Assembly: GCA_001632435.1 (NCBI GenBank)
Contig: KV424102.1
Location: 3,315 to 51,492 of the forward strand
DNA: 48,178 nucleotides
Direction: 5' to 3'
From: Calocera cornea HHB12733
Lineage: Eukaryota; Basidiomycota; Dacrymycetes; Dacrymycetales; Dacrymycetaceae
Numbering within the stretch: the stretch's first letter is position 1; each line of letters opens with the position of its first letter. Below the pieces are notes generated by a model that searched no databases, had not been told where the DNA came from, and saw nothing but the letters and a program-made list of their open reading frames with translations. This document shows positions 25 through 3,763 of this stretch, piece after piece. Position numbers and translations under genes: made by a program.

Positions 25-462
25 GACTCGGTTCGCAAGGCGTTCGCCCAGAGTGGCTTGTCGCCCCAGCGGAGGATCACGGACTTCTCCAGCGAGGAGT
101 TGAGCACGGTTTTCAAGCTTGTAAGTACTAACTTCTATTTTCTACATCTACTAACTACTTTACAGGCCGAAAAGAACTCCCCAGAGCTAGCTGCTTATGA
201 CAGGCAGTGGGCTTCAAAGGACCTGCTCATGCAGTACCTGAAGAACCTCAAGATGCGCCAGAAACGGGCTGCCGCTGTTGCAGCCAACGGGAACGGGAAC
301 GGGAACGGGAACGGGAATGGGAATGGGAACGGGGACGGGGACGGGGACGGGGACGGGCAGGGCGCAGCTGAGGAGGACGAGGAGGGTGAGGATGAGGGGG
401 AGGGCGATGATGATGATGATGAGGACGAGGACGAGGACGAGGAGGACGAGGACGGCGCGTAG
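25..462 (+). CDS. 3'-terminal exons of an unidentified gene (partial at the left edge)
   Basis: The window opens inside an intron that ends CTAAC...TTTAG at 24. An open frame then runs through a second, in-frame 45-nt intron (121-165, GTAAGT...CTAAC...TACAG) to TAG at 460-462. The exon after 25 reads DSVRKAFAQSGLSP; the next contains a Lys/Arg-rich stretch (LKNLKMRQKR), then about 11 Gly-Asn/Gly-Asp repeats and a run of some 40 residues that are mostly Asp and Glu. The VRKAF..SGL.P pattern is vaguely like the region just after the catalytic domain in fungal pogo/Fot1-type transposases, but this is a weak resemblance and the diagnostic part lies outside the window. The function is not assigned. 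The Gly-Asn and acidic tails are products of repeat expansion and may carry little specific function. Confidence 0.45.
   Translation, partial: DSVRKAFAQSGLSPQRRITDFSSEELSTVFKLVSTNFYFLHLLTTLQAEKNSPELAAYDRQWASKDLLMQYLKNLKMRQKRAAAVAANGNGNGNGNGNGNGNGDGDGDGDGQGAAEEDEEGEDEGEGDDDDDEDEDEDEEDEDGA
288..357. repeat. GGGAAC/GGGGAC hexanucleotide microsatellite
   Basis: About 11 hexamer units start as GGGAAC and drift to GGGGAC. In the coding frame they give Gly-Asn and then Gly-Asp dipeptides in the tail of the partial gene. All three forward frames stay open across the repeat, which explains the overlapping spurious ORFs here. Confidence 0.9.
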
Positions 463-1200
463 GATAGGATCCCCCCAAGGCTTTCATTATCAGCAACTAA
501 CTAAATGAATTCAATTACTATTTTTCAACCCCTCAACCCTCTACTGGCTGTCTTTCAGCCGCAGTATCGTTGGCAATCCTCAGCAAAGGAGCTGATGTTC
601 AGCACGCAGCTGCTTATAAGCAAAGGCTTCGCGGCTTTTAAAAGTTAGTTAATAAATTTCTTATATTATGTACCTAAACTACTGAAAATAAGCAAACTAC
701 TCTTTACTTATCACTTTCTTCTCATTAGCAGCCCTTTTGCCTCCCAAAGCAAGGAGCTGATAATAAACTATATCTACAAGGTACGCTAACTTCTACTAAT
801 CAACCACTCCTAGGGTCCTAGTGTCATCATCACGATGAGGGCAATGCACGTCATCTCTGAGACATTAACTCTCCAGCAGTACTCTTAACATACACTCCTT
901 TGTGGCTGCGTTTACCTGCTCGAGCGGTTATCCAACACAGCCAGGTAATTTGCACCTCTCGTGAGATGCATTACCTGCTAAACGGGAACCTCGGCGAAAA
1001 TGTCTTTCGGCCTCTCACGGTAATTTTCAAAACCGCATTGCCATGATGCTCCTGTTCATGGCTCAGTTCTTTCCGCGTCGGATGTCTATCAGCTTCTGAT
1101 CACTACAGTGCCCGATTCACCATCTTTCTGCACGGTCAGCTCTGTGGCCTGGAAGAAGTAGAAGCGAGGCAACTCCATACCTCAACCCAAGCCGGTCACC
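463..1200. other. intergenic, no gene seen
   Basis: No convincing coding frame was found. The stretch at about 600-790 is AT-richer than its surroundings (TAATAAATTT, TATATTATG). The last 100 bp act as upstream region of the secreted precursor gene that follows. Confidence 0.6.
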
Positions 1201-1201
1201 G

Positions 1202-1251
1202 TATAAAATATGTGCAAACGCAGTAAATGCTCGTCAGGCTGGTCCTTTCCC
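1202..1251 (+). promoter_or_regulatory. core promoter of the first secreted precursor: TATA box plus block shared with the second
   Basis: TATAAAA lies at 1202-1208. A block of 18 bases (1234-1251, beginning TCAGGCTGGTCC) lies 32 bp downstream, where transcription start or early leader would be expected. The same block with one mismatch occurs at 2990-3007 ahead of the neighbouring paralogue, also downstream of a TATA-like element, so the two genes probably duplicated together with their promoters. Confidence 0.6.
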
Positions 1252-1355
1252 TCTTCAAGTTCTTCAGCATACCCGTCTCAAGAAAGTGCTGGTCACTCCT
1301 ACTTGCAACACTACACACTCCTACACCTAATCACCAATACCATTCGCATACCACC

Positions 1356-2411
1356 ATGCAGATCCTCTACTCTACTCTGCTGGTTTCGGCCCTCGCTTCC
1401 ATTGCCACCCTCGCCGCACCTGTTCCAGCACTCGGCGGAACCGATCTCGAGCTCACTGCACGAGATCCCCAGCAGCAACTCGGGACCTTCAACCTTCGAA
1501 GCTATCACGGCCCAAGTGATACCGAAGCACTTTACGCTCGCAATAGTGGGAACAACGATTTTATTGTGCTCCGCAACTTTGACAACGATGACGAGTTCGA
1601 CCTTGACGACCGCAGCTTCAAAAACGCGGTTGCCAAAGGAAAGAACTTCGTGAAGAAAGTTGGGAAGGGACTTGCCAAAGTCGAGAAGGGGCTCGAAAAA
1701 GTCGACAAGTATGCCCAGATTGGCATGAAGGTTGCCAAGGCGGGCATGAACGTTGCTAGCAAGATACACCGCCGAGATGATGAAAGCGACAACGACTACG
1801 AGTTTGTTCTGCGCGACAACGCTTTCGACAACGAGAGCAACACCGTTGAACGTGATCTCGCGACCGATGATGACTTCGAGCTCTACGAGCGGGGCTTGAA
1901 AAGCTTCGCCAAGAAGGTCAGCGGCCAGATTGGAAAGGCCGCCCACGGGGCCAAGACTGCGTGGAACGTCGCCACTGGCAAGACTAAGCTTATCGACGTT
2001 GTTATGAGGGATGTGGACGACGATGAGGAGTGTGAGGTTGTTCTACGGGACCTTGAAATCGGAGCGGAGATCGAGCTTGACGACCGTAGCTTCAAGAGCG
2101 CGGTGGCGAAAGGCAAGAACTTTGTCAAGAAAGTGGGCAAGGGTCTCGCGAAGGTGGAGAAGGGCCTCGAGAAGGTCGACAAGTACGCCAAAGTTGGCAT
2201 GAAGGTAGCCAAGTTCGGCATGAACGTCGCCAGCAAGATTCATCGCAGGGACGAGGAAAACATCGGTGAATACGAGCTGACCCTGCGTGATTTCGAGTCC
2301 ACGGAAGACGATAATGTCCCCATTCTCCGCGACCTGGCGACGGGGGAGGAGATCGAGCTCGACGAGCGCAGCTTGAAGAGCTTCTATTCAGACCAACAGG
2401 CTCTTCAATAA
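1356..2411 (+). CDS. secreted repeat precursor with alternating acidic spacers and Lys-rich amphipathic modules (351 aa)
   Basis: I chose ATG 1356 (ACCACCATG) because it directly starts a signal peptide (MQILYSTLLVSALASIATLA, cut near residue 20-26); the open frame extends 43 codons upstream but into the leader. After the signal come acidic segments rich in Asp/Glu with [LVE]RD motifs, alternating with cationic modules at residues 87-140, 180-212 and 245-298. The first and third modules are 54 residues each and identical at 50 positions; each has 13 to 14 Lys and ends HRR, a dibasic Kex2-type site. Module starts follow DDR, YER or DDR. A fourth module begins at 339 (RSLKSF) but is cut short by the stop. 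The architecture resembles Kex2-processed fungal repeat precursors and antimicrobial or membrane-active peptide precursors. I do not recognise the family by sequence. The neighbour at 3082 is a paralogue. No intron is needed. Confidence 0.85.
   Translation: MQILYSTLLVSALASIATLAAPVPALGGTDLELTARDPQQQLGTFNLRSYHGPSDTEALYARNSGNNDFIVLRNFDNDDEFDLDDRSFKNAVAKGKNFVKKVGKGLAKVEKGLEKVDKYAQIGMKVAKAGMNVASKIHRRDDESDNDYEFVLRDNAFDNESNTVERDLATDDDFELYERGLKSFAKKVSGQIGKAAHGAKTAWNVATGKTKLIDVVMRDVDDDEECEVVLRDLEIGAEIELDDRSFKSAVAKGKNFVKKVGKGLAKVEKGLEKVDKYAKVGMKVAKFGMNVASKIHRRDEENIGEYELTLRDFESTEDDNVPILRDLATGEEIELDERSLKSFYSDQQALQ
1614..1775 (+). repeat. cationic module, copy 1 (54 codons)
   Basis: This encodes residues 87-140 of the precursor. 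Its partner at 2088-2249 encodes the same 54-residue module with four amino-acid changes but about 23 codons that differ only silently. The copies are therefore old duplicates under protein-level constraint, not recent copies. Net charge is about +12. Confidence 0.85.
2088..2249 (+). repeat. cationic module, copy 2 (54 codons)
   Basis: This encodes residues 245-298, beginning SFKSAVAKGK and ending KIHRR. The four differences from copy 1 are N to S, QI to KV and A to F. Confidence 0.85.
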
Positions 2412-3081
2412 GATGAGAAATGTATAATCAGCTCTGCTTGACACATGTATTGTTGTTGTTGTTGTTGTTGTATGGGAGGGGCGAGAATGCGTAGCATGGT
2501 GATTGTGACCGAGGCGTGGCAACGACGTGGGGCCGCGTGAGCAGGACTGTTTTGGCACGTGACCTCTAGCACATAGTGCCGTCATCCCGCATCAGATTGG
2601 CAGTGCAAAACGAACCTCCGTGCGACCCAACGCAGTTTATGAAATCACGTCTCCGGACACTCTCTTCCACCGCAATCTACTATCATAAGGCACTGCACGA
2701 TGACGTTGGCCCCTGGTGATGCAGTCACATCAAAATCTAAGCTCTGCCGATTGCTTTCCCAACGCGCAAGACTACGAGACCTCATGGGGGGGCATGAAAC
2801 AATCCATTTCATTTCGACACACGGGCATTCGATGTCTACTCTGCGCCACGTCTGGGAGCTATCAGGAATTGTGTTCCTACATCATTGTCGGTATCGTGCT
2901 CGGCGTCGAGCGAAAAGAGGTCCAATTACAGTTGCGGTGCCCAGCCAGAGGGGTATGAAAGCCCGGTGTGTCGGATCTTCCCAAAACGCTCAGGCTGGTC
3001 CTTCCCCATCATCTTCGCTCACCAACTACTAGTGCCGGTCCGTAGCTCTTTTATACGATTGCTCGTCTACCATCTTGCATC
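2412..3081. other. intergenic between the two secreted precursors, with TATA-like and shared promoter block
   Basis: It holds a short TTG microsatellite (about 2450-2470) and no convincing gene. TATGAAA at 2954-2960 and the shared block TCAGGCTGGTCCTTCCCC at 2990-3007 form the probable promoter of the downstream precursor. The spacing from TATA to block (36 bp) is close to that in the first gene (32 bp). Confidence 0.6.
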
Positions 3082-3363
3082 ATGAAGGTCATCTACTCCA
3101 CCCTTCTGCTTTCGGCGCTCGCCTGCGTTCTCGTCACAGCGGTGCCGATCCGAGGACGCGACACAACCGACCTCCAACTCAATGCCCGGAACACTGTAAA
3201 CGACGTCGACGTCATCACGGACTTCTACTATCGTGACTTAGACGAAGACGAGCGCCTCGACGAGCGCGACAGCGTGGGTAGCAGCGTCAAGCATGGCTTC
3301 CATAAGGTCGGCCAAGGCATCAAGAATTGCGGGCAGAAGCTCGGGAAGATGATCTGTGGATGA
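3082..3363 (+). CDS. second secreted precursor of the same family, short (93 aa), ending at a TGA
   Basis: It begins MKVIYSTLLLSALACVL, clearly homologous to the signal peptide of the gene at 1356. Then come a basic RGRD, an acidic segment ending LDEDERLDERD, and one basic module of about 30 residues (SVKHGFHKVGQGIKN...) ending with two Cys separated by eight residues (C-GQKLGKMI-C). TGA at 3361-3363 stops it one residue after the second Cys. Unlike the first precursor, this module contains Cys and could form a disulphide loop. The same frame stays open after the TGA with a typical acidic spacer, so the gene is either genuinely short or a truncated version of a longer precursor. Confidence 0.7.
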   Translation: MKVIYSTLLLSALACVLVTAVPIRGRDTTDLQLNARNTVNDVDVITDFYYRDLDEDERLDERDSVGSSVKHGFHKVGQGIKNCGQKLGKMICG

Positions 3364-3763
3364 GATCGCAATGACGAGAGCGACGAGTACCAGCGGTTCA
3401 TGCGCGCGGATGAGATGGTGGCAGCTCGTGGGGAGCTTGCTCTTCGAGAGTGAAAAAAAAGTCAGAGTACCGCCACGAACATTGGCACTCATCCACCGCA
3501 GTGTCAGCAGCCAAATTAAGGGCAGCGCCAGAAAGGCGGGAAGCGCAGTCAAGCAGAGCGCCCGGGCAGCTGGGCATGCTGTCAAGTCGTGCGTGAAGAA
3601 GCTGGGTCAGATGGCCTGCGCCAGGGACGTGGAAGAGGATGTTTACGAGCTCGTTCTGCGGGAGGATGAATCGGATGAAGAGGTCCTCGGGATGCGCGAG
3701 TCGGGATCTGGAGGATTGGAGGAGCGCCATTGGCTGTTGTTTCAGCCGCTCTTGCAGGAGTAG
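3364..3763 (+). pseudogene. continuation of the second precursor beyond the TGA: acidic spacer plus second Cys module
   Basis: Directly after the TGA the same frame reads an acidic spacer (DRNDESDEYQRF...) like the DDESDNDYEF spacer of the first precursor. It stays open to TGA 3451. A plausible 52-nt intron at 3450-3501 (GTGAAA...CGCAG) has the right phase to join a frame running to TAG at 3761-3763. That frame holds a second basic module with the same Cys pair, spaced C-VKKLGQMA-C, followed by another acidic spacer. Only the TGA at 3361 separates it from the upstream part. It may be a nonsense-mutated half of one gene, a readthrough product, or a separately expressed fragment; the sequence alone cannot decide. 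Confidence 0.5.

Follow-up and report, generated by a model that had tools for sequence, protein, structure and literature searches.

The 48,178-nucleotide stretch of Calocera cornea HHB12733 analysed here (the window; part of contig C189 in the 32.1 Mb genome of this member of the Dacrymycetes, a wood-rotting jelly fungus) carries two adjacent genes for putative secreted peptide precursors, in which basic modules alternate with acidic spacers. Gene 1 (1356..2411, on the forward strand, as are the parts of both genes and the shared upstream region given below) is an intronless open reading frame (ORF) of 351 amino acids with two paralogues on contig C25. It opens with a hydrophobic, signal-peptide-like leader, MQILYSTLLVSALASIATLAA (1356..1418, assigned by eye), and a single XPQ peptide, DPQQQLGTFNLR, follows at residues 37–48 (1464..1499). 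Module 1 (residues 87–140; 1614..1775) is a Lys-rich amphipathic segment of 54 residues and net charge +10, helical in a low-confidence model. An acidic spacer with several Arg sites within it (residues 141–179; 1776..1892; net −14) separates it from module 2 (residues 180–218; 1893..2009; net +6), and a further acidic spacer, consisting of the 13-residue units DVDDDEECEVVLR and DLEIGAEIELDDR (2010..2087), leads to module 3 (residues 245–298; 2088..2249; net +11), which is 93% identical to module 1. The acidic spacer beyond module 3 (residues 299–338; 2250..2369) contains the cut-like sites ELTLR, VPILR, and ELDER. A first-pass annotation, made from the sequence alone, had described this alternation and had correctly placed the module starts at S87, G180, and S245; its description of Lys-rich modules ending in HRR holds for modules 1 and 3, which end in IHRR, and fails for module 2, which ends in VVMR.

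Basic residues are sharply partitioned between the two kinds of segment. The modules of gene 1, 147 residues in total, contain 34 Lys and 7 Asp+Glu, with 5 Arg confined to their ends, and the 183 non-module residues from position 22 on have a single Lys beside 13 Arg and 59 Asp+Glu; 34 of the 35 Lys after the leader thus lie within modules, and internal module Arg are absent. Most boundaries are single Arg preceded at P4 by an aliphatic residue (LxxR) rather than dibasic sites. Leu, Ile, Val, or Met stands at P4 of 12 of the 18 Arg of gene 1 (5.4 expected), a count reached by none of 5000 shuffles of the Lys/Arg labels, and the neighbour charge of Arg is −2.94 vs. −0.27 expected, which no shuffle of 5000 equalled. 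Across 13 protein rows, which are related and therefore do not provide independent tests, 10 were significant in the P4 test (p < 0.05) and all 13 in the charge test (p ≤ 0.01). Pooling 106 Arg from eight proteins yielded Leu at P4 in 48, Leu, Val, or Ile at P4 in 72, Asp at P1′ in 43, and Ser at P1′ in 24, and the acidic fragments between Arg in ten proteins are 12–15 residues long in 59 of 73 cases. In-silico cutting of gene 1 at [LIVM]xxR or dibasic sites separated the three modules, at +10, +6, and +11, from intervening spacers of −5 to −14, with N-terminal end fragments of −1 or −2 and a last one of 0. Most relatives showed a like alternation of charge when cut in this way.

Gene 2 (3082..3763) runs from a leader-like start, again assigned by eye and similar to that of gene 1, as the first-pass annotation had proposed. 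Its first open frame (3082..3363) encodes 93 residues and contains one Cys-pair module, C-GQKLGKMI-C (3268..3360; net +4), before it is closed by an in-frame TGA at 3361–3363. Past this codon family-like sequence continues in the unchanged frame, and a putative 52-nucleotide intron (3450..3501; GTGAAA...CCGCAG), placed by the frame and a restored LR|D boundary, precedes a second Cys-pair module, C-VKKLGQMA-C (3503..3625), after which the frame closes with a stop codon at 3763. This second C-x8-C module can be reached only over the TGA and the putative intron. The Cys pairs around KLGxM were rightly recognized at first pass, but the stop and the intron were overlooked, and the gene is not the intact two-module frame that had been supposed. 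Sixteen alternative in-frame introns that would skip the TGA are possible, none of them compelling. The TGA may reflect truncation, decay, a base error, or splicing, and the gene may be truncated or decaying.

Relatives of both genes occur elsewhere in the genome and in other Dacrymycetes, which extends the tandem pair to a family. About 11 loci lie on six contigs, some of them weakly linked: two on C189, two on C25, one on C34, two on C208, three on C107 (one partly hidden by N), and one on C123. The two C25 frames are identical to database proteins, and the C34 gene, spliced by hand, is database protein P0005. Strong links join gene 1 to C25 (E 7e-39 or better), the metagenomic protein P0003 to gene 2 (E 1.7e-18) and to C25 (E 2e-10), and P0005 to C208 (E 7e-10). 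The group of C34, C208, and C107 is linked more weakly to the group of gene 1, either directly (gene 1 vs. C34, E 0.089; P0003 vs. C34, E 0.003) or through P0005 (vs. gene 2, E 2e-4; vs. gene 1, E 0.009). Weak links also join P0005 to C107 (E 7e-5), the second C208 locus to C107 (E 0.0096), and C123 to gene 1 (E 7e-6, a value that composition may inflate). The common layout supports these weaker links without proving them. Outside this genome, relatives include at least P0006 of C. viscosa, P0004 and P0008 of Dacryopinax primogenitus, and the metagenome proteins P0003 and P0007; the single-module member P0005 has relatives with 65–86% identity in C. viscosa and Dacryopinax. Dacryopinax belongs to the Dacrymycetes. 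All seven named database matches, among the matches listed, come from Calocera or Dacryopinax, and within that scope the family has so far been seen only in Dacrymycetes.

Genes 1 and 2 are tied together by P0003, since it holds both module types on one chain, two Cys-pair modules (C-x9-C) and one linear module. Alignment of 13 modules gave the pattern [ED]LxxR...K-x-F-x-KK-[VI]-G-x-G, in which the Leu, the Arg, and one Lys are invariant, the Leu and Arg partly by choice because the modules were hand-cut at that boundary. None of 13 query sequences scored above the curated cut-off of any Pfam family, and searches of PDB sequences with family members returned no credible relative, in agreement with the first-pass statement that no described family was recognized. 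Pfam matches under the cut-off (DUF5089, HBL, RimP, ACT, and others) were scattered and were taken as chance. Further genomic matches were not retained: no precursor layout was seen in the frames examined at those on C54 (E 0.10; L019), C74, and C97, and those on C10 (E 0.96) and C89 (E 3.5) were likewise left out of the family.

The loci on C107 form a trio of adjacent precursors (L049 1240–1956; L049 3531–4418; L050 from about 3964, on the minus strand). Two of them contain His-/Gly-rich modules such as NIFGVVKKIFHHGGKHA or GIFHAIGKLFHHGGKHA and a C-terminal basic peptide such as SKIGNFFKKIGRGIKKAVGAIL. The C123 locus (L073 1–8382) is a giant ORF that consists mostly of N; its readable end shows RDxDGNEYELDER spacers between Lys-rich stretches, and it is possibly a giant member of the family.

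The modules have the periodicity of amphipathic helices. Among cationic fragments of net +3 or more and at least 18 residues (a test set that leaves out P0006, P0007, gene 2 module 2, C107c, and C123), the helical hydrophobic moment exceeded that of composition shuffles in 17 of 18 (p < 0.02), and the hydrophobic period peaked at 95–103° in all nine modules examined. The AlphaFold model of gene 1 places one helix in each module (84–138, 171–206, and 243–296) and coil in the spacers between, support that is weak because the mean predicted local distance difference test score (pLDDT) is 43.

Comparison of modules 1 and 3 of gene 1 showed that about 25.7 of 33.8 synonymous sites differ, vs. 5.3 of 128 non-synonymous sites. 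Since synonymous positions have mostly changed and the protein barely has, the repeat is old and held by purifying selection, not homogenized by gene conversion; this retention, together with the relatives elsewhere, argues that the resemblance of the modules is not due to chance. In the closest pair, module 3 of gene 1 and its C25 copy (G1m3/G4m1), non-synonymous (dN) and synonymous (dS) divergence were 0.024 and 0.563 (dN/dS 0.04), and the spacer after the module in the same pair gave dN 0.090, dS 0.289, and dN/dS 0.31. Purifying selection acts strongly on the 54-residue module and less so on the spacer in this pair, for which site numbers are small.

Candidate enzymes for processing are present in the genome: one kexin P-domain place, adjoining sequence that resembles, by eye, a subtilase and a membrane anchor, is a candidate kexin, and there is a DPPIV-family gene. 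LxxR is described as an extended Kex2 motif (PMC8528282), and mushroom kexin-processed peptide precursors (KEPs) expressed in Pichia gave products ending at a single Arg (PMC9769878). The C25 paralogue P0001 contains, within residues 37–168, six R|XPQ starts (for example DPQTANFVGQIR) at a constant spacing of 24 residues, of which gene 1 keeps one. An XP start after a cut is the signature of Ste13 (PMC9769878), and the P0001 units are predicted to yield short Gln-started peptides after Kex2 and Ste13. On this basis, short KEP-like products as well as long helices may be released from at least one precursor. No UstYa/DUF3328 gene was found near the precursors on C189, C25, C34, C107, C208, or C123, the one such place lying on C16; without UstYa clustering at the precursor contigs, a ribosomally synthesized and post-translationally modified peptide of the dikaritin type was rejected.

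The genes resemble KEPs in their leader, their several peptide units between basic sites, and the XP starts of P0001, and differ in that gene 1 has two RR and in that its units are long, partly unlike, and charge-alternating. Surveys for KEPs demand KR, RR, KK (or RK) sites and at least three repeats (PMC6339444, PMC7329392, as far as their accessible text goes). In a simplified check requiring at least four fragments, KR/RR cuts gave one to three in each of the 13 rows (three for gene 1), which fails that branch; KK cuts gave four in 6 of the 13 rows, including gene 1, with the KK sitting inside modules. By inspection, three similar repeats between dibasic sites are lacking, gene 1 having two near-identical modules and one divergent, and the six XPQ units of P0001 are bounded by single Arg, not dibasic sites. 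Dibasic filters would probably miss these genes, most of whose sites are single-Arg LxxR. The main texts of both surveys (PMC6339444, PMC7329392) name no Calocera or Dacrymycetes, though their supplementary tables might hold a member. Within the searched fungal literature (titles and abstract openings, thin on subscription journals), no paper among the matches listed describes such a precursor family.

Two fungal systems share single elements of the design. Kex2-processed pro-domain (K2PP) effectors such as SnTox3 are cut at LxxR, an extended form of the Kex2 motif (PMC8528282), and the same combination of aliphatic P4 and Arg P1 marks boundaries here (the 12 Arg of gene 1 counted above). In the accessible account, the effectors have one N-terminal pro-domain and one mature protein; the precursors described here have many cut-like sites and several helices. 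Ece1, a fungal multi-peptide precursor processed by Kex2 and then Kex1, also contains several peptides, one of which, candidalysin, damages membranes (PMC5784256, PMC7329392); it is cut at KR motifs (PMC5784256), acidic spacers are not mentioned in the available portions of these sources, and the comparison with it is by description only.

In layout the genes resemble the complex precursors of spider venom (cupiennins, latarcins), an animal system. As portrayed in the accessible sections of PMC7889660 and PMC8290080, these have a leader, an anionic propeptide, and cationic linear helices separated by Arg-bounded anionic linkers, mostly 11–13 residues in Cupiennius salei, and some spider transcripts encode Cys-bearing peptides. 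Arg-to-Arg anionic linkers between cationic helices are found here as well, mostly of the 12–15 residues noted above, with helicity in this comparison resting on periodicity and low-confidence models. The cut rule differs: spiders have Glu within the three residues before Arg, the processing quadruplet motif (PQM; Glu at −2 to −4), and the fungal sites have an aliphatic P4. Counting Glu only, Asp being a rare spider substitute, the PQM precedes 3 of 18 Arg in gene 1 and at most 10 of 14, in C107a. In spiders each Cys chain has a single Cys and joins another to form a two-chain peptide, whereas the modules here carry two Cys. Since the layout is shared and the spider cut rule is not, the genes would work like spider precursors without being members of that group; we infer convergence.

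We consider it slightly better than an even bet (about 0.52) that the family encodes secretory multi-peptide precursors from which kexin frees cationic amphipathic helices that act on membranes. Peptide release fits the sequences well; activity on membranes is inferred. The leader, read by eye, would carry the precursor into the endoplasmic reticulum. The acidic spacers, mostly 12–15 residues between Arg, would offset the cationic modules; the whole is net acidic in charge, and this could keep the helices harmless to the producing cell. Kexin would then cut after single Arg, at [D/E]-L-x-x-R and x-L-R|D, several times per spacer, and would spare the gene 1 modules, since every basic residue in their interior is Lys. 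A Kex1-type carboxypeptidase would remove the C-terminal Arg, and in the C25 paralogue a Ste13-type dipeptidase would trim the XP ends. Finally, and least certainly, the freed helices, some with a Cys pair, would bind to and disturb the membranes of microbial competitors in wood. C. cornea lives as a saprotroph and is not a plant pathogen, so that any use of the peptides as weapons would probably be directed at such competitors.

Several observations weigh against this proposal. Gene 2 has a stop codon within it, and a dN/dS as low as that of the module is unusual in antimicrobial peptides engaged in an arms race. As to the cut sites, the P4 test was non-significant for P0006, P0008, and P0009, 6 of the 18 Arg of gene 1 lack Leu, Ile, Val, or Met at P4, and P0005, P0008, P0003, and gene 2 module 2 have internal module Arg. 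Many boundaries (ELDER, ELDDR) have Asp at P3, which is described as unfavourable for Kex2 (PMC8528282). Charge alternation fails in places: two presumed modules of C107a come out at net −1 and +2, and one module of P0004 reaches only +2. In C107b, SSR- or QQR-type sites close two His-rich modules, and the LxxR rule fails to part two modules from their acidic spacers. The helix analysis that had been suggested at first pass, borne out by the moment in nearly all fragments, falls short for gene 1 module 2, the sole exception (p = 0.18), and in the AlphaFold models, which have low confidence (pLDDT 43 and 52). Synthetic KEP peptides of C. cinerea had no antibacterial activity in the accessible part of PMC9769878. 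On balance, the observations made at first pass are confirmed, with corrections, and prove richer than stated, and its interpretation is partly supported: the layout fits a Kex2-type peptide precursor, with sites that are mostly single-Arg LxxR, unlike those sought by dibasic KEP surveys.

The most serious competitor, which we regard as unlikely, has the precursors cleaved in the same manner into signals or self-assembling surface peptides (pheromone-like KEP products, Rep1-like fibres, or coiled coils). The strong purifying selection seen in the module is in keeping with a receptor ligand or with an interface for assembly, the six regularly spaced R|XPQ starts of P0001 (one in gene 1) and the DPPIV-family gene point toward KEP-like products, and the inactivity of the C. 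cinerea peptides leans the same way. The hydrophobic period of the 54-residue modules peaks at 102°, near the 3.5-residue repeat of coiled coils, and weak PDB profile matches include designed coiled coils (E 0.045 and worse, behind a leucine-rich repeat protein as best match at E 0.018). However, short Gly-containing cationic modules (P0009, C107b) also peak at 100–102°, so that a peak there is no mark of coiled coils in particular, and high charge and amphipathicity over many unlike modules argue for a physico-chemical rather than a receptor-specific role.

It is improbable that the products are instead uncleaved secreted polyampholytes of the wall or the gelatinous fruit-body matrix, with acidic and basic blocks binding each other or polysaccharide. 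Blocks of opposite charge do extend across hundreds of residues, C. cornea makes gelatinous basidiomata, and the giant, mostly N-masked C123 ORF with its RDxDGNEYELDER spacers would suit a matrix polymer. But if no protease were involved, the placement of Arg in spacers and Lys in modules, with an aliphatic P4, would be difficult to account for; in the pair measured, conservation is stronger in the module than in the spacer; and a single-module protein, P0005, has 65–86% identical relatives in C. viscosa and Dacryopinax. A reading in which the genes are duplicates in decay or without expression, serving no function today, finds support in the TGA in gene 2 and in the fact that gene 1 was not returned as a database protein among the matches listed, but is very improbable given the open frames of gene 1 and four paralogues (two on C25, two on C107), dN/dS of 0.04 to 0.31 in pairs with unsaturated dS, and the retention of P0005-like proteins in C. 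viscosa and Dacryopinax.

The surroundings of the paralogues supply further observations. The region upstream of gene 1 (825..1355) matches that of a C25 paralogue at about 69% (825–1502 vs. L013 5731–6404), suggesting that the promoter region was duplicated together with the gene. Farther upstream, a frame ends in the window (25–462) with a C-terminus of NGNGNG, DGDGDG, and Glu/Asp runs. Beside the C25 paralogues, L013 about 335–2305 encodes a KTPKTPKT-repeat protein, perhaps secreted, whose end, RFVPRDFDDDEMYWARDYSENLEELD, looks like acidic Arg-bounded spacers.

The family offers candidate fungal helices, linear and cationic, whose ends can be predicted exactly, and what appears to be a case of convergence upon the precursor design of spider venom. 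Fungal peptide-precursor surveys may be incomplete because their filters need dibasic sites, in place of which these precursors mostly have single-Arg LxxR. A broader proposal, possible but tentative, is that a combinatorial library of ribosomally made, membrane-active helices, encoded as charge-neutralized polyproteins and released by kexin at single-Arg LxxR sites, arose in Dacrymycetes independently of spiders. If true, this would be a peptide-arsenal architecture overlooked by dibasic KEP surveys.

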